Assembly: GCF_003732545.1 (NCBI RefSeq)
Contig: NZ_AYKF01000002.1
Span: forward strand, 1-64,000
Length of the DNA: 64,000 nucleotides
Source: Salinisphaera orenii subsp. halophila YIM 95161
GTDB taxonomy: Bacteria; Pseudomonadota; Gammaproteobacteria; Nevskiales; Salinisphaeraceae
Direction: 5' to 3'
The notes under the pieces are model-generated. The model ran no database searches. It saw only the letters and a program-made list of their open reading frames with translations, and was not told the origin of the DNA. The position numbers were made by a program, and so were the translations under genes. Below, piece after piece: positions 11,215-58,495 of the stretch (position 1 is its first letter; every line of letters begins with the position of its first letter).

Positions 11215-11445
11215 CTAGGACGAGTGACGGTCGGTGTAGGGCAGCAGCGCCAGGAAACGGGCGCGCTTGACCGCGGTCGACAGCTGGCGCTGATAGCGCG
11301 CGGCGGTGCCGGTGATGCGGGACGGAACGATCTTGCCGGTTTCGGTCACGTACTGCTTGAGCGTCTCGATATCCTTGTAATCGATCTCTTCAACGCCTTC
11401 GGCGGTGAACTTGCAGAAACGGCGGCGGCGGAAAAAACGGGCCAT
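11215..11445 (-). CDS. rpsR: 30S ribosomal protein bS18
   Basis: Small-subunit protein S18, 76 residues, the normal size. It shows the basic N-terminus [16 protein letters not shown], the segment [17 protein letters not shown] and [16 protein letters not shown], all diagnostic. It forms a heterodimer with S6 on the 30S platform. The gene lies between rpsF and rplI with spacers of 18 and 9 nt, as in most bacteria. The stop codon is part of the rplI ribosome-binding site, so the two reading frames are probably translated together. Confidence 0.98.
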
Positions 11446-11463
11446 GGGAGTGCTCCTCGAGCG

Positions 11464-11826
11464 TTAAGCCGGGCTGCGGTCTTCGGACTTGCGGTCCTCG
11501 GACTTCTCGGCGTTCTTGGCGAGCGGGGACGGGTCGGTGTCGGCCTTGTGACGGGCCACCACCATGTGACGCAGCACGGCGTCGTTGAAGCGGAAGGCGT
11601 CCTCGATCTCCTCGCGGGCGGCCTGCGAGCACTCCACGTTCAGCAGCACGTAGTGCGCCTTGTGGATCTTGTTGATCGGGTACGCCAGCTGGCGCCGGCC
11701 CCAGTCCTCGTGGCGGTGCACCTGGCCGTTGTCGGCCTCGACGATGCCGCGATACTTCTCGACCATCGCCGGCACCTGTTCGCTCTGGTCCGGGTGGACC
11801 AGGAACACGATTTCGTAATGTCGCAT
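11464..11826 (-). CDS. rpsF: 30S ribosomal protein bS6
   Basis: Small-subunit protein S6, partner of S18. The ATG at 11826 gives [19 protein letters not shown], the standard S6 start; the longer open frame upstream is not homologous. The single ferredoxin-like domain spans about residues 1-98 with [12 protein letters not shown] and [10 protein letters not shown] charged tail follows, rich in Lys, Glu and Asp (99-120). It is preceded by AAAGGACA as ribosome-binding site and is the first gene of the operon. In many bacteria the S6:S18 complex binds the leader of this mRNA. I could not establish the S6:S18 leader fold here. Confidence 0.97.
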
Positions 11827-12325
11827 CGGTTGTCCTTTCGGTTTGAAGCCCCCGGCAAGACACGCCGTGGAGCAAGGCACTGCGGCGAGCGCCGCAAGGC
11901 GCGACATTCTAGGCAGTTCCCCGGGACGACGCAACCGCTGCGACCCGCGATCGCGGGCACCGGTAGGCCCGCCGCACCACTGATATTCATTCCGCGAATC
12001 GCGAGGGCGTCGCTTGATGGCAGGGCCCCAGGGCTTCCTCCTGTCAACATGTCTCACGAACGCGGCTTGGGCGACCGCACATTATATCCCGCAAGCTTCC
12101 AAGCGCGGCTCGTAGTGCGCCACAAGCCGGGCGCGCCACGGCGCAAGACCCGGGTTGGATGAGACACGGGGCGGCCCGGACGAGCCGGACGCACCGGAAA
12201 TTTCACGAGCTAATGCGCACCGGCATTGCCGCATGCCGATGCGACAGCGGCTGCGCGGCGCGCTCGAAGCCTTGGCATGCCGCCGGACAACGCGTGGCGC
12301 GAGGAACGACGAGGATCAACAGGTT
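11827..12325. other. rpsF upstream region; no gene
   Basis: This 499-nt gap between rlmB and rpsF, both on the minus strand, holds the rpsF promoter candidates. I see no convincing gene in it. The segment at about 12043-12130, read on the minus strand, shares pieces with the intergenic repeat family described at 30.4, 36.8 and 56.7 kb: GGCGCACTACG and a terminal GTTGACAGG. It may be a degraded copy. Confidence 0.45.
11906..11934 (-). promoter_or_regulatory. Candidate sigma-70 promoter for rpsF-rpsR-rplI
   Basis: On the minus strand, TTGCGT (11934-11929) and TAGAAT (11911-11906) are separated by 17 bp. The -10 matches consensus at five of six positions, the -35 at three. The predicted start lies near 11899, giving a leader of about 70 nt before rpsF. 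A perfect TATAAT is also present further upstream at 12086-12081 but has no fitting -35. Confidence 0.4.
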
Positions 12326-13090
12326 CTAGTCCGTTGACGTCGTCCCGGCCATGGCGCGCTGGCGAACCGCCTCGAACAGGGTGATGCCGGTCGCCACCGA
12401 CACGTTCAGACTCTCGACATCGGCGGCCATCGGAATGGCGACGCAGTCGTCGCACTGGCGCTGCGTCAGCGCGCGCAGTCCGCCGGCCTCACCCCCCGCC
12501 ACGAGCACGAGGCGTTCCGGCAGCGCCGTATCGTAAAGCGATGCCGGCGCCTGCGCGTCCAGACCGACCACCCAATAGCCGTCGGTCTGGAGCCGGCCCA
12601 GCGCTCGTGCGAGATTGGTCACGGGCACGAACGGCACCCGCTCGGCGGCCCCGGCCGCGACCTTGCGCACCGCCGGCGACAGGCCGGCCGCGCGCTTGCG
12701 CGGTGCGATCACCGCGGAGACGCCTGCCGCCGCGGCGGTGCGCAGACAGGCGCCGAGGTTGTGCGGGTCCTGGACCTGATCGAGCGCGAGGACCCAGGGC
12801 TGCTCGACCGCCTCGAGAATCGCCGGCAGTTCGGACTCCCGGCGCGGCTGGGCGATCTCGCACTCGGCCACGCAACCCTGGTGGCGCACCTCCGGCAGGA
12901 GCTCGTCGAGCCGGGCCATCGGCGCCCGCTCGACCGGCACGCCCTGCCGCGCCGCCTCGTCGGCGACGCCGCGGGCCCGGGCATCGTCGCGGCCCTCGGC
13001 CAACCAGATGCGCCGCAGCGTCGGGACGTTGCCGAGGGCGGCTTCCACGGCGTGGAAGCCGCCGATGCAGGCCTGCGCGGCTTCCGTCAT
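12326..13090 (-). CDS. rlmB: 23S rRNA (guanosine-2251-2'-O)-methyltransferase RlmB
   Basis: A SpoU-class (SPOUT, trefoil-knot) methyltransferase that modifies G2251 in the peptidyl-transferase loop of 23S rRNA. The 254-residue product has the N-terminal substrate-binding domain (about residues 5-80) and the three SpoU motifs: NLGACLRTA, VAGGEAGGLRAL and VESLNVSVATGITLFEAVRQR. Length and motif order are normal. RlmB rather than TrmH is favoured by the N-terminal domain and the rnr-rlmB-rpsF gene order. An OmpA-type lipoprotein gene has been inserted between rnr and rlmB, which are adjacent in E. coli. Confidence 0.95.
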   Translation of the reverse strand: MTEAAQACIGGFHAVEAALGNVPTLRRIWLAEGRDDARARGVADEAARQGVPVERAPMARLDELLPEVRHQGCVAECEIAQPRRESELPAILEAVEQPWVLALDQVQDPHNLGACLRTAAAAGVSAVIAPRKRAAGLSPAVRKVAAGAAERVPFVPVTNLARALGRLQTDGYWVVGLDAQAPASLYDTALPERLVLVAGGEAGGLRALTQRQCDDCVAIPMAADVESLNVSVATGITLFEAVRQRAMAGTTSTD

Positions 13091-30326: not shown

Positions 30327-30400
30327 TCAGCGCTCCCGACGGTGCCCGTCCGTCGGCGCCCGCAGCGACGAATGACGGGAAAACGATCGCCCAGTCTAGG

Positions 30401-30662
30401 GCCTGTCAACGTTTCGTACGAGTCCGAGCCTAGCGCTGTTCCACGGCAAGACGCCCCGTAGTGCGCGCCATGCAGTCATTCCGCACAAGCGTGCTATACG
30501 CTTTATTGCCGCATCTTGTTAATTCCATGGGCGCTTGTGACGGTTCGGCCGGCCATGCCAGATCGACTATGGGCGCGCTGCGGTGTTCCAAGCCCTAGTC
30601 GCGGCTCGCCACGAACGGCTGCGCGCGCCTTGCCGCACACGATGTGCGGTCTCCAACGCGGC
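30401..30662 (-). repeat. Dispersed intergenic repeat, copy B
   Basis: About 262 bp filling most of the gap between amiB and the TauE-like gene. Read on the minus strand it is collinear with copies A (36758-37026) and C (56723-56983). It shares GCCGTTCGTGGCG (30607-30619) and GCGTCTTGCCG (30444-30454) with A, and GGCGCGCACTACG (30457-30469) with C. It begins GTTGGAGACCGCAC and ends GTTGACAGGCC. It shows no coding frame common to the copies. Confidence 0.8.
30493..30522 (-). promoter_or_regulatory. Candidate promoter of the TauE-like / flavoprotein pair
   Basis: On the minus strand TTAACA (30522-30517) and TATAGC (30498-30493) are spaced by 18 bp. The start would be near 30485, about 160 nt before the TauE-like gene. 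The whole promoter lies inside the intergenic repeat copy at 30401-30662; the matching bases differ in the two other copies, so the promoter strength is specific to this one. Confidence 0.4.
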
Positions 30663-30706
30663 GCTCGTTCATCGGCCGATACGACATCGCGCGCCCGTAT
30701 CGCCGC

Positions 30707-36569: not shown

Positions 36570-37094
36570 GGCGTGATTCCGTTGTTACCGAAACGGTGGT
36601 TCGGCGAAATCGTAACCAAAATCCGGCGATCGGACCAGCGGCGGCCATCCACCCGCGTCCAGTGAGCGGGAGGCCACGCGACCGATGCCCGCCGATGCAT
36701 GGGTGTCGGCATGCGACGCGGACGCACGCCGGTCGGCCGGCTCGCCCGAGGAGCCCTCAACACGTCAAGCGGAAATCGCGTTGGAGGCCGCACGTCGTGG
36801 ACTGCAAGACGCGAGCCGCCGTTCGTGGCGCGCCCCGATCAAGACGTGCCATGTCGTACGGCGTCCATGATGAATGGTTCATGGGTGGCCCGGGCCGATG
36901 GACCGGGCATCCATGATGGTCACGAGATACAGTAATCCAGCGTTGGCACACGCGGGCGCGGAGTGGCGGCGCGTCTTGCCGCAGAACAACGCCCGGCGCG
37001 GAATCGCATGGCGCGCTGACGGGCCCGGGTCGGGCCGAACCGGCGGCGCACCCATGCCGCCCTTCGCTCCGGGATACGCTCTCCCGCGGGCAAG
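36570..37094. other. panC / panD intergenic region; no gene
   Basis: A 525-nt gap inside the pantothenate gene cluster. The half near panC is the repeat copy A. The other half (36570-36757) is GC-rich and has no coding or RNA signature that I can see; it should carry the panD-pgi promoter. Confidence 0.6.
36758..37026 (+). repeat. Dispersed intergenic repeat, copy A
   Basis: About 269 bp, plus orientation, between panC and panD. It shares GCCGTTCGTGGCG (36818-36830) and GCGTCTTGCCG (36971-36981) with copy B, and AATCCAGCGTTG (36934-36945) and CGCCCGGCGCGG (36990-37001) with copy C, in the same order and with similar spacing. It contains stop codons in all frames relative to the other copies and looks non-coding. 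Confidence 0.8.
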
Positions 37095-56129: not shown

Positions 56130-56696
56130 ATGGACAATCGCCGCTACTGCCCCGTCTGCGCCAGCCCGCTCGAACGCCGCGTTCTGGCCGACCACGAGCG
56201 CGCGCTGTGCCCCGACCCGGACTGCGGCTATGTCTTCTGGGACAACCCCATTCCGGTGGTCGCCGGCATCGTCGAGCACGAGGGCGCCCTGGTCTTCGCC
56301 CGCAACGCACTCTGGCCGGCCGGCATGTACGGCCTGGTCACCGGTTTTCTCGAACCGCGCGAGGCGCCCGAGGACGCCGTGGTGCGTGAGGTCGCCGAGG
56401 AGCTGAGCCTGGACGCGCGCATCGAATCCTTCGTCGGCGTCTACGGCTTCGCGCGCAAGAATCAGCTGCTGCTGGCCTATCACCTCGTCGGCGAAGGCGA
56501 GATCCAACTCAACGAGGAGCTGGCGGAATACCGCCACGTCGCCCGCGCGGAGGCCGAATACTGGCCCGGCGGCACCGGGCTTGCGGTGCGCGACTGGCTG
56601 CGCGGCCAGGGCTACGACCCGCAGCCGCGCGAACTGCCGGACGCGGTCCAGGCCTGGATGCAGCAACCGCCGACGACCGACGCCAGCGGTAACTAA
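56130..56696 (+). CDS. NUDIX hydrolase with N-terminal zinc ribbon
   Basis: A 188-residue protein. Residues 1-33 form a zinc ribbon with C7, C10, C27 and a Cys in PDPDCGY. The NUDIX domain follows (about 38-160). Its NUDIX box reads GFLEPREAPEDAVVREVAEE then LSL, so the box is intact except that the usual Gly after EE-x is Ser. The substrate is unknown; relatives act on NADH or other nucleoside diphosphates. The ATG at 56130 is 2 nt after the tgpA stop, so cotranscription is nearly certain, although such a gene is not a usual part of the moxR-tgpA operon. Confidence 0.88.
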   Translation: MDNRRYCPVCASPLERRVLADHERALCPDPDCGYVFWDNPIPVVAGIVEHEGALVFARNALWPAGMYGLVTGFLEPREAPEDAVVREVAEELSLDARIESFVGVYGFARKNQLLLAYHLVGEGEIQLNEELAEYRHVARAEAEYWPGGTGLAVRDWLRGQGYDPQPRELPDAVQAWMQQPPTTDASGN

Positions 56697-57226
56697 TACC
56701 GGTCGGCACGTTATTCGCCAGCCGCATTGGAGACCGCGCATCGCGTCGGCGCGACGCGAGTGGCCGATCGGGGCGAGCACGTTCAACCTGGCCGCGCCGC
56801 AGGGCGCGCGGGGTCGATTCTTCTTGGGCGACCCAGCCGTCGGCCCAGGCGCCCCATGAGATCAGCAAGGTGCGGCAATCCAGCGTTGTCGCACGCGGGC
56901 GCAACGCGACTGCACGGCGCGCACTACGCGCCGCCGTGCCGCGAAACAGCGCCCGGCGCGGGTTGCATGACGTGTTGACTGGTCCGAGCGCTCCCCGCCA
57001 GTGCGGCTTCGGTCGCGACCATCGCGTCACGACGACACGGTGGGCCGACCGACGAGGCGGAGTTTCTCCGTCGCCACTCACCTCACCGATGTGATGGCAG
57101 GGTCACGGCAACAACGGCCACGCGGTTCGACACCTAGGCGCGACCGGATCGGGCGGCGCGATCGCCTGTATCGAGGTGGAGCACGCCGTCGCCCAACGGT
57201 GCGGCCACGCGGTACGAACGCGCCGT
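56697..57226. other. Intergenic region between convergent genes; no gene
   Basis: A 530-nt gap between the NUDIX gene and the leftward MFS gene. Its first half is repeat copy C. The second half (56984-57226) is GC-rich without a recognised gene, RNA or terminator. Confidence 0.6.
56723..56983 (+). repeat. Dispersed intergenic repeat, copy C
   Basis: About 261 bp, plus orientation, starting 26 nt after the NUDIX gene. It begins CATTGGAGACCGCGCATCG, resembling GTTGGAGACCGCAC of copy B. It shares AATCCAGCGTTG (56877-56888) and CGCCCGGCGCGG (56950-56961) with copy A, and GGCGCGCACTACG (56916-56928) with copy B. It ends GCATGACGTGTTGACTGG, close to the ends of the other copies. Confidence 0.8.
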
Positions 57227-58495
57227 TCAGTCGGCCGCGCCCGGCGCCTCGCGCGCGTCGACCCGCGTGAGCAGCCAGCCGCCGGCGACGAACAGCACCA
57301 GCACCGACAGGATCGACAGCCGCGCGCTGCCGGACAGCGCCGCGGTCGCGCCGACCAGCAGCGGCCCGATCACCGCGGCGAACTTGCCCATCATGTTGTA
57401 GATGCCGAAATACTCGCCGGCGCGCCCGTCGGGGATCAGGCGCGCGAAGTAGGAGCGCGACAGCGACTGCACGCCGCCCTGCACCAGCCCGATCACCGCG
57501 GCCATGACATAGAACTGCCACTCGTAGGCCAGGAAATAGCCCCAGGCGGTAACGCCGGCATAGACCGCCAGCCCGAGATAGATCGCCTTCTTGGTCTCCC
57601 ATTTCGAGGCCAGCCAGCCGAAGGCGATCGCGGCCGGAAAACCGATGAACTGCACCAGCAGCAGGGCGGTGATCAGGCTGGTCTGGCCGAAGCCGAGGTT
57701 GAGGCCGAAATCGACCGCCATGCGGATGATCGTGTGCACGCCGTCGATATACAGCCAGTAGGCGATCAGAAACGTGAATACCGGCTTTTCGCTGAAGATA
57801 CGGCGCGCGGTCAGGCGCAGTTCGGCGAGTCCCTCGCGCATGGCGCGGGTGGCGCTCGGAGTATCCGCGTCGCGGCTCTCGTCGACGAACAGGAAGACCG
57901 GCAACGAGAACAGCGCCCACCAGACCGCCACGCTCAGAAACGACCAGCGCACCGCCGCCGCGCGATCGGCCAAAGCAAAGACCTCCGGCCACAGCGTCAT
58001 CGCCACGTTCACGGCCAGCAGCAGGCCGCCGCCAAGATAACCGAGCCCGTAGCCGAGCGCGGACACGCGGTCGTAATCGGCCGGCGCGCACACATCCACG
58101 ATCAGGCTGTCGTAGAACACCATGGCCAGAAAGAAAGCCGTCGAGGCGATCACGAACAGCGTGAGCGCGGCCAGCCATTGCCCCGCGCCGACGAAGAACA
58201 GGCCGGCGGTGGCGGCCACCGCGATCCCGGTGACGCCTGCAAGCCAGGGTTTCTTGCGGCGGCTGCGATCGGCGATCGCGCCCAGCAGCGGGGCGAGGAA
58301 CAGCACGATCAGGCTCGCCAGCGCGCTGCCCACGCCGAGCTGCAGCGTGCTCGTCTCGGCCGCGTGGTCGGCGCTCCAGTAGGTCTTGAAGAAGATCGGG
58401 AAGAAGCCCGCCACCACCGTGGTCGCGAAGGCGGAGTTCGCCCAGTCGTAGAGCGCCCAGCCGAGCTGGGCGCGACCCGTCGCCGCCCGGCTCAC
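57227..58495 (-). CDS. MFS transporter, UMF1 / Atg22-like
   Basis: A 422-residue polytopic protein with about twelve spans. Its start LGWALYDWANSAFATTVVAGFFPIF is the marker of the UMF1 (vacuole-effluxer Atg22-like) branch of the major facilitator superfamily. Other parts are DRSRRKKPWLAG after span 2 and FYDSLIVDVCAPADYDRVSALGYGLGY. Substrates of bacterial members are unknown; the yeast relative exports amino acids from the vacuole. Starts at GTG (58495), with a GTGA overlap on rimI. Confidence 0.9.
   Translation of the reverse strand: MSRAATGRAQLGWALYDWANSAFATTVVAGFFPIFFKTYWSADHAAETSTLQLGVGSALASLIVLFLAPLLGAIADRSRRKKPWLAGVTGIAVAATAGLFFVGAGQWLAALTLFVIASTAFFLAMVFYDSLIVDVCAPADYDRVSALGYGLGYLGGGLLLAVNVAMTLWPEVFALADRAAAVRWSFLSVAVWWALFSLPVFLFVDESRDADTPSATRAMREGLAELRLTARRIFSEKPVFTFLIAYWLYIDGVHTIIRMAVDFGLNLGFGQTSLITALLLVQFIGFPAAIAFGWLASKWETKKAIYLGLAVYAGVTAWGYFLAYEWQFYVMAAVIGLVQGGVQSLSRSYFARLIPDGRAGEYFGIYNMMGKFAAVIGPLLVGATAALSGSARLSILSVLVLFVAGGWLLTRVDAREAPGAAD

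Follow-up and report, generated by a model that had tools for sequence, protein, structure and literature searches.

Three intergenic segments in a 64,000-nucleotide stretch of Salinisphaera orenii subsp. halophila YIM 95161, the stretch analysed here and referred to below as the window, resemble one another along their length, and the question they raise is what kind of repeat they are, how it has spread and why its interior looks the way it does. An earlier note on this DNA had described them as one repeat family and had named a small RNA family and a non-autonomous mobile element among the possible identities.

Copies in the window and in the genus

The mutual alignment of the three window segments gave a mean column identity of 77%. 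BLAST matched the 56723 copy to the 30401 copy with E 1e-21 and to the 36758 copy with E 5e-8, the copies being named here by the starts given in the earlier note. The window was also scored with a profile made from ten copies from outside it, which showed a fourth, older copy. Each segment delimited by the earlier note is homologous to the others, but its true ends lie 2-29 bp farther out. The limits had been set too short because the terminal inverted repeats (TIRs) of the window copies have decayed and were not visible to the reader. The copies and their arms are listed below; the outer ends of W1 (left), W2 and W3 were placed by eye from the family alignment, the profile matches being up to 20 bp shorter, and the arms were located with the models R1 (arm 1) and R2 (arm 2).

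12040-12328, plus strand: element copy W4, strongly decayed; 55.7 bits, R2 match only at E 0.14
30397-30689, minus strand: element copy W1 (30401-30662 in the earlier note); 189.8 bits, left end by eye
30400-30423, plus strand: near-intact TIR of W1; 3 mismatches to the TIR pattern
30428-30519, minus strand: arm 2 of W1; model R2, 36.2 bits, E 8.4e-6
30570-30661, minus strand: arm 1 of W1; model R1, 35.3 bits, E 4.5e-6
36748-37028, plus strand: element copy W2 (the 36758 copy); 116.6 bits, ends by eye
36776-36881, plus strand: arm 1 of W2; model R1, 49.1 bits, E 1.9e-9
56694-56988, plus strand: element copy W3 (the 56723 copy); 122.9 bits, ends by eye
56722-56817, plus strand: arm 1 of W3 (weak); model R1, 21.3 bits, E 0.012
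56871-56943, plus strand: arm 2 of W3; model R2, 31.1 bits, E 0.00012

Arm 2 of W2 gave no R2 match at E 1. With the profile, the reversed window scored 3.0 bits and none of twenty dinucleotide shuffles exceeded 8.4 bits, far below the three segments, which ruled out chance similarity. The repeat family is real, and the shared blocks quoted for it are present, given that the segments labelled A, B and C in the earlier note are the 36758, 30401 and 56723 copies, respectively.

According to Pfam, W1 has an N-acetylmuramoyl-L-alanine amidase gene and a TauE/SafE gene as its neighbours, and W2 has panD (aspartate decarboxylase) on one side and panC (pantoate-beta-alanine ligase) on the other. The neighbours of W3 are a NUDIX gene and an ORF without a Pfam match. 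W4 adjoins a SpoU-type methylase gene and overlaps the end of ORF 11224-12162, which also lacks a Pfam match. The window copies are old and their TIRs have decayed, the right TIR of W1 (30400-30423) being the sole near-intact one.

Further copies, whose absence the earlier note would have taken as a refutation, were found in number. The 56723 copy gave 42 BLAST matches in its own genome (3.79 Mb), one of them the query itself and a few copies being matched in two pieces, and the 30401 copy matched 14 of 41 genomes, which were all 14 of the genus and none of the 27 others. The genus is Salinisphaera, as judged from the named records among the matches listed. Records filed as Endozoicomonas sp. 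G2_2 (L104, L157) carry Salinisphaera elements, and the Endozoicomonas name on them is probably wrong. A Lysobacterales MAG (L113) holds a full copy, and the other loci from outside the genus among the matches listed belong to Subdoligranulum (L064) and Burkholderiaceae (L151). On viral contigs, no exact match to the one pattern searched was found. The copy set was reduced from 241 non-overlapping matches to 129 full copies and then to 113 distinct full-length copies. These were 253-319 bp long, and intact Salinisphaera copies were mostly 270-315 bp.

Three modules in the arms toggled between a short form and a form about 14 nt longer (about CCCATnGTcaATTTTcAGGG), which gives rise to length classes near 272, 286, 299 and 313. 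The middle loop at the centre of the element occurred in both orientations, CCCTTCGGG and its reverse complement CCCGAAGGG. The same copy in G000 (L006) and in S. orenii (L116) differed right at the end, to which a sequence with the start GTGTCTTGCCAG was joined. A sequence with this start also stood beside two other copies (L010, L176); it may be another mobile element or result from the assembly.

Ends, partner insertion sequences and sites in relatives

In a family alignment of 47 copies with 40-bp flanks, conservation continued about 26 bp past the left end given in the earlier note and into the TIR. The TIR of this family (family I) was about 24 bp long and present at both ends among the 113 copies, reading roughly GGGC(C/G)TGTTG-nnn-TTTCGTRCGAGC. 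Its pattern was found at 97+101 places in genome G001, and the reversed-pattern control at none. The insertions lie at TA within YTAR, the base to the left of TA being C or T in 107 of the 113 copies and the base to the right G or A in 104. TA was found at both ends in 62 of the 113, a count that does not separate duplication from target preference. Of the 113 copies, 108 had G as the first base of the element, with the bases farther out being variable, and one insertion sequence (IS; L215) was flanked by CTAG on the left and CTAA on the right; both observations agree with a duplication of 2 bp and not of 4 bp. At G008:C1:2098478-2098559, two family I TIRs faced each other within 82 bp, perhaps as a TIR-only miniature.

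We also looked at ISs with matching ends. ISs of 855-860 bp with an IS5-family transposase were found in S. hydrothermalis, Salinisphaera sp. Q1T1-3 and other members. The transposase matched NF033580 with E 9e-77 and contained DUF4096 and DDE_Tnp_1 domains, and some copies had internal stops. These ISs sit at TA, and the outer 18-20 bp or so of their ends are common to IS and repeat. At TIR positions 10-12 in S. hydrothermalis, the ISs had GAG, as did 22 of 29 repeats at the left end and 20 of 29 at the right, one of the 29 being a member of family II, described below. The two ends of the intact IS of Q1T1-3 differed, one having GAG and the other GAT, and the 38 repeats of that genome included both variants (left, 18 GAG and 15 GAT; right, 18 GAG and 17 GAT). 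In G002 the IS ends had GCC, and so had both ends of all three full copies. However, the match failed in G003, where the IS had GCC and the full copy (L041) GAG, with the outer bases still shared, and in G008 four of five copies had GCC, yet no such IS was found there. The match of TIR variants therefore holds in some genomes and is not general.

The window's own genome contained no close partner IS, the best having 38% identity, and its PF01609 matches were rejected as partners, as none carries the family I TIR. The copies there may thus be stranded. A search with the IS5 protein in 14 genomes outside the genus gave matches in three, all of them distant and without the TIR of the local repeat. 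The TIR pattern of G020 was found at 15 places, most of which continue like the repeat and five of which (L336, L340-L343) stop at a contig end. Two other places with this pattern (L345, L347) were considered as the partner and rejected, since they are unlike the repeat inside and had no evident transposase among the long frames viewed by eye.

The insertion sites were then compared with those of relatives. At the W2 site, the panD-side and panC-side sequences of G003, G004, G005 and G009 lay 35-211 bp apart, versus 492-642 bp in the window. At the W1 site both flanks were matched in G004 and G005; in G003 and G009, BLAST matched the amidase side only, and the other side was matched only in the multiple alignment. 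The flanking matches of the W3 site were 20 bp apart in G009. The stretches from nine relatives had no profile match to the element even at E 10. S. orenii MK-B5 (G012), the closest relative, carries the 30401 copy with 100% identity. The W3 site (window positions about 56664-57238) coincides with a synteny break in this strain, with the flanks on contigs C6 and C12. The comparison of loci gave no clean single-event empty site, and the relatives' sites, which also differ around the insertion, show presence and absence of the element rather than a clean junction.

On the tests that could be made, the family is almost certainly a miniature inverted-repeat transposable element (MITE). The TIRs, the TA/YTAR sites, the IS5-family ISs with matching ends and the relatives' sites without the element bear out the mobile element that had been guessed from the sequence. 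An IS5-family (IS427-type) transposase would bind the TIRs and move the MITE in trans, and insertion would produce a 2-bp (TA) duplication; the IS427 label was assigned from size, repeat length and profile rather than from ISfinder. It is extremely unlikely that the family is instead a host small RNA or regulatory family that does not move. Such a family would account for the structure and covariation described below, but all four of the features just named speak against it, and so does the Rfam search, in which the window matched only a tRNA and none of 12 element loci had a match on the element at the gathering score, the weak ones listed being at chance level.

The folded interior within and beyond Salinisphaera

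A 272-nt copy was predicted to fold with -176.9 kcal/mol on the plus strand (z -15.5) and with -173.5 kcal/mol on the minus strand (z -13.1), and the DNA fold of one copy gave a z of -8.0. The predicted fold is a Y composed of the TIR stem, two long arms and a small CCCTTCGGG-like hairpin between the arms. The conserved core reads CAAGGCG...GCAACGCCG. Arm 1 was predicted to fold better on the plus strand (alignment A4, -58.2 vs -31.6) and arm 2 on the minus strand (alignment A5, -60.2 vs -43.1).

The same layout with rewritten stems was found under other ends, in a second Salinisphaera family (family II, TIR GGGCGTGTCGTCATGAGA) and in a third type from a neighbouring genus (G015, L280; TIR GGGCGTGTTAACCATTA). 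The outer TIR bases of family II are shared with a different IS5 element (L201, L218). Full copies of family II (such as L154 4232-4503) are 95-98% identical within S. hydrothermalis, so this family was probably active recently.

Covarying base pairs, which the earlier note had suggested as a check, were found in both arms. Across the three TIR types, double changes occurred in 21 of 39 arm-1 pairs and in 19 of 38 arm-2 pairs. The cells with double changes numbered 97 in arm 1 and 118 in arm 2, against shuffle means of 33 and 43, and none of 500 shuffles was as high; the structure used here was taken from one member, which favours that structure in the slide control. One result ran counter to this, as the number of pair types in A5 (35) was below that of the shuffles (39.9). 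The mixed-length alignment of 33 copies gave a weaker consensus fold of 65 pairs; 21 of these pairs had double changes, and many of the 21 belong to the TIR. The mixed-length consensus of both arms was a moderate fold with a covariation term of -1.1.

The two arms were also compared with each other. R1, which models arm 1, also recognised arm 2, read on the opposite strand, in 6 of 8 elements and at 14 of 28 loci. The antisense of arm 1 scored 16-36 bits with R1, so that part of the score of R1 on arm 2 reflects hairpin shape alone. However, the words CAAGGCG and GCAACGC were found in arm 2 on the opposite strand and support a common descent of the arms. Judged from its sequence, the element is an inverted pair of one unit, with related arms.

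As a covariance model, R1 was searched in genomes beyond the genus. It matched 49 of 274 sampled genomes of the class, in 41 of 221 genera, and two of the 49 were Salinisphaera. In a sample of the phylum it matched 38 of 349 genomes, of which 22 were outside the class, in five families. Two of three queries matched plasmid records, from Azotobacter, Halomonas and Pseudomonas aeruginosa, and the third had no plasmid match. Since the TIRs are invisible to the arm model, enclosure of a match by TIRs is an independent check. Among 37 loci outside Salinisphaera, 30 were enclosed by TIRs at two-arm distance (score at least 14, a limit that we set), and the enclosed length was 264-273 bp in 26 of the 30. 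A similar TIR scan of 60 random places averaged 8.1, with one place at 24 and the rest at 11 or less. Single arms were directly enclosed by TIRs at L301, L315 and L323 (159-171 bp), three further loci were ambiguous, and L309 was a two-arm element of 275 bp.

The TIRs of these loci were of different kinds. Only 6 of the 30 were within one mismatch of GGGCCTGTT, and other examples outside the genus were AGAGCCTATCC, AGGGAATCTCTG, TAGTGTCCCTTAAC and CTAGTACTC. Double changes were seen in 35 of 39 pairs among 43 hairpins, which came from 28 of these loci, with a score of 0.766 against 0.181 when shuffled; their alignment was fitted to the model and leans towards it, and some of the loci come from the same genus. 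The core word CAAGGCG was exact in 36 of the 43. The elements very likely form one superfamily that has a conserved cassette and mostly different TIRs. At L299, matches to the TwoAYGGAY RNA motif were found around the element and not on it (1135-1250, 1405-1473 and 2870-2938), two of the three being above the gathering score.

Proposed selection on one folded strand per arm, and the relation to known elements

With DNA pairing alone, G·T and A·C mismatches would be expected to be equally common, and the two were therefore counted. The sides of the outer stems were aligned with a symmetric score in 42 of the 43 hairpins, one being dropped as its core was not found. The outer arm stems contained 50 G·T and 8 A·C mismatches. 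G·T was in excess in 25 hairpins and A·C in 3, with 14 ties (p 1.4e-5), although the hairpins cannot be counted as independent, and mutation with a strand bias could contribute to the excess. The G·T:A·C ratio was 29:6 in the better-matching arm and 21:2 in the opposite-strand arm. In the TIRs it was 24:20 for 30 elements outside the genus and 61:70 for 113 within it. In Salinisphaera, arm 1 had a ratio of 50:4 in 22 related copies, and arm 2 was near even (7:5, with 15 of the 22 usable). A count from the model-fitted alignment gave 94:19. The count over whole arms, which includes the fixed core, had the opposite sign (59:109), because the bulges of the fixed core are counted as mismatches. 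The G·T excess in the outer arm stems, with the TIRs even, points to selection on a folded single strand, and it seems that folding of one strand per arm is selected, in opposite directions in the two arms.

The family is probably a MITE that is moved by an IS5-type transposase and carries a conserved, folded cassette of two arms. In each arm, the conserved entity would be a single folded strand, most likely RNA produced by read-through transcription from the neighbouring DNA. With the arms inverted, read-through from either side would give one correctly oriented hairpin. The hairpin may help the element to persist, for example through transcript processing or insulation, or by binding a host factor. 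We propose an RNA-level function of the arms tentatively, at somewhat less than even confidence, and we infer that RNA is the molecule concerned. The small RNA family guessed in the earlier note is a candidate reading at most; the strong covariation of the arms and the strand-specific tolerance of G·T fit selection on a folded single strand. For the nucleoid-protein site, the third guess of the earlier note, nothing in these results gave evidence.

The folded single strand could also be DNA, with the arm hairpin serving a step of replication or transposition, as in systems that recognise hairpins. Single-stranded DNA tolerates G·T pairs just as RNA does, and the z of the DNA fold given above is also in favour of this reading. 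However, IS5-type DDE transposition is not known to need single-stranded hairpins, and we consider the DNA hairpin rather unlikely. About equally unlikely, in our judgement, is a process at the DNA level that keeps the palindromic arms paired, such as hairpin template switching in replication or conversion from arm to arm, with no product under selection. It is favoured by the inverted and related arms, and the toggling of modules and the occurrence of the middle loop in both orientations are what copying from arm to arm might give, but it does not predict the fixed core, the near-constant length or a G·T excess confined to the arms. A further possibility is an ordinary MITE with an arbitrary, decaying interior, whose arms are alike only through descent from a few masters. 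The TIRs, TA sites and IS partners would explain dispersal without any function of the interior, and the window copies have indeed decayed. This reading nevertheless appears quite improbable, as the stems have been rewritten with compensation, genera that differ in their TIRs have kept the core, length and fold, and the G·T over A·C bias of the arms is absent from the TIRs.

The selected folded cassette, if it holds more widely, would make these elements a parasitic class that spans the phylum and is defined by its cassette and not by its ends or its transposase, a reading to which we give somewhat less than an even chance. One or two hairpins of about 100 nt with a fixed core would be carried under any TIRs that a resident transposase recognises. 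The cassette would act as a structured RNA, and its inverted duplication would let the RNA work in either orientation of insertion.

In the usual view, MITEs are IS remnants with arbitrary interiors. Here the fold, the core motif and the length persist over many genera, and the ends and stems are rewritten. A constant fold with changing ends in many bacteria suggests that the fold is useful to the element, and the family offers a testable case for some MITEs carrying a selected, structured cargo. The covariance model also reached farther than sequence search, as the BLAST matches of one copy in 41 genomes were confined to the genus and R1 found matches in 41 of 221 genera.

REPINs, ERIC and BOX are dispersed intergenic palindromes with shorter units, and REPINs pair two inverted REP units that a RAYT transposase moves. 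The present family is set apart from them by description, as its TIRs at TA sites enclose two arms of about 100 nt. A search of the open-access literature found no description of the family, and it may coincide with repeats recorded in ISfinder or in supplements, such as R200 of P. fluorescens. The P. fluorescens repeats R26 (352 bp) and R200 (320 bp) are intergenic and of similar size, and the table of the source lists them without a structure; this comparison is by description only (PMC2718517).

The partner ISs are like the IS427 group of the IS5 family in size, DDE transposase and TA site. According to the part of the source available, the IS427-group ISs of Paracoccus are 832-865 bp long and nearly all have 2-bp direct repeats (PMC3281130). 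The MITE differs from that group in having no transposase, and only its outer 20 bp or so are common with the IS. MITEPsy1 of Pseudomonas syringae is probably an IS5-type MITE, which inserts at CTAG or YTAA sites and was trapped transposing in vivo (PMC3189936). In contrast with the present family, it is 100 nt long, with 18-nt TIRs and a 4-nt duplication, and the available portion of its description mentions no two-arm structured interior (PMC3189936). The Coxiella elements QMITE1 and QMITE2 are multicopy MITEs with very stable predicted folds and are sources of small RNAs (PMC5896051). They are 300-400 and 150-190 bp long, respectively, and orthologues of QMITE1 elsewhere are not reported in the accessible text; the present family is distinguished from them by description (PMC5896051).

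The nearest precedent that we have seen is the structured mobile motif MRSC-65-2 (PMC11109978). In the text of the source at hand, it is a motif supported by covariation, often present in dozens of copies per genome and thought to be selfish, for which the authors leave open whether RNA or DNA is involved (PMC11109978). It differs from the present family in forming one long stem, in which a UYCCGG repeat is conserved, as far as that text goes; overlap with it or with other motifs of that paper is possible (PMC11109978). In our set, TYCCGG was found in 5 of 43 hairpins on either strand, and two occurrences on the read strand in none of the 43. Set beside these systems, the unusual feature of this MITE is its conserved folded cassette under changing ends.
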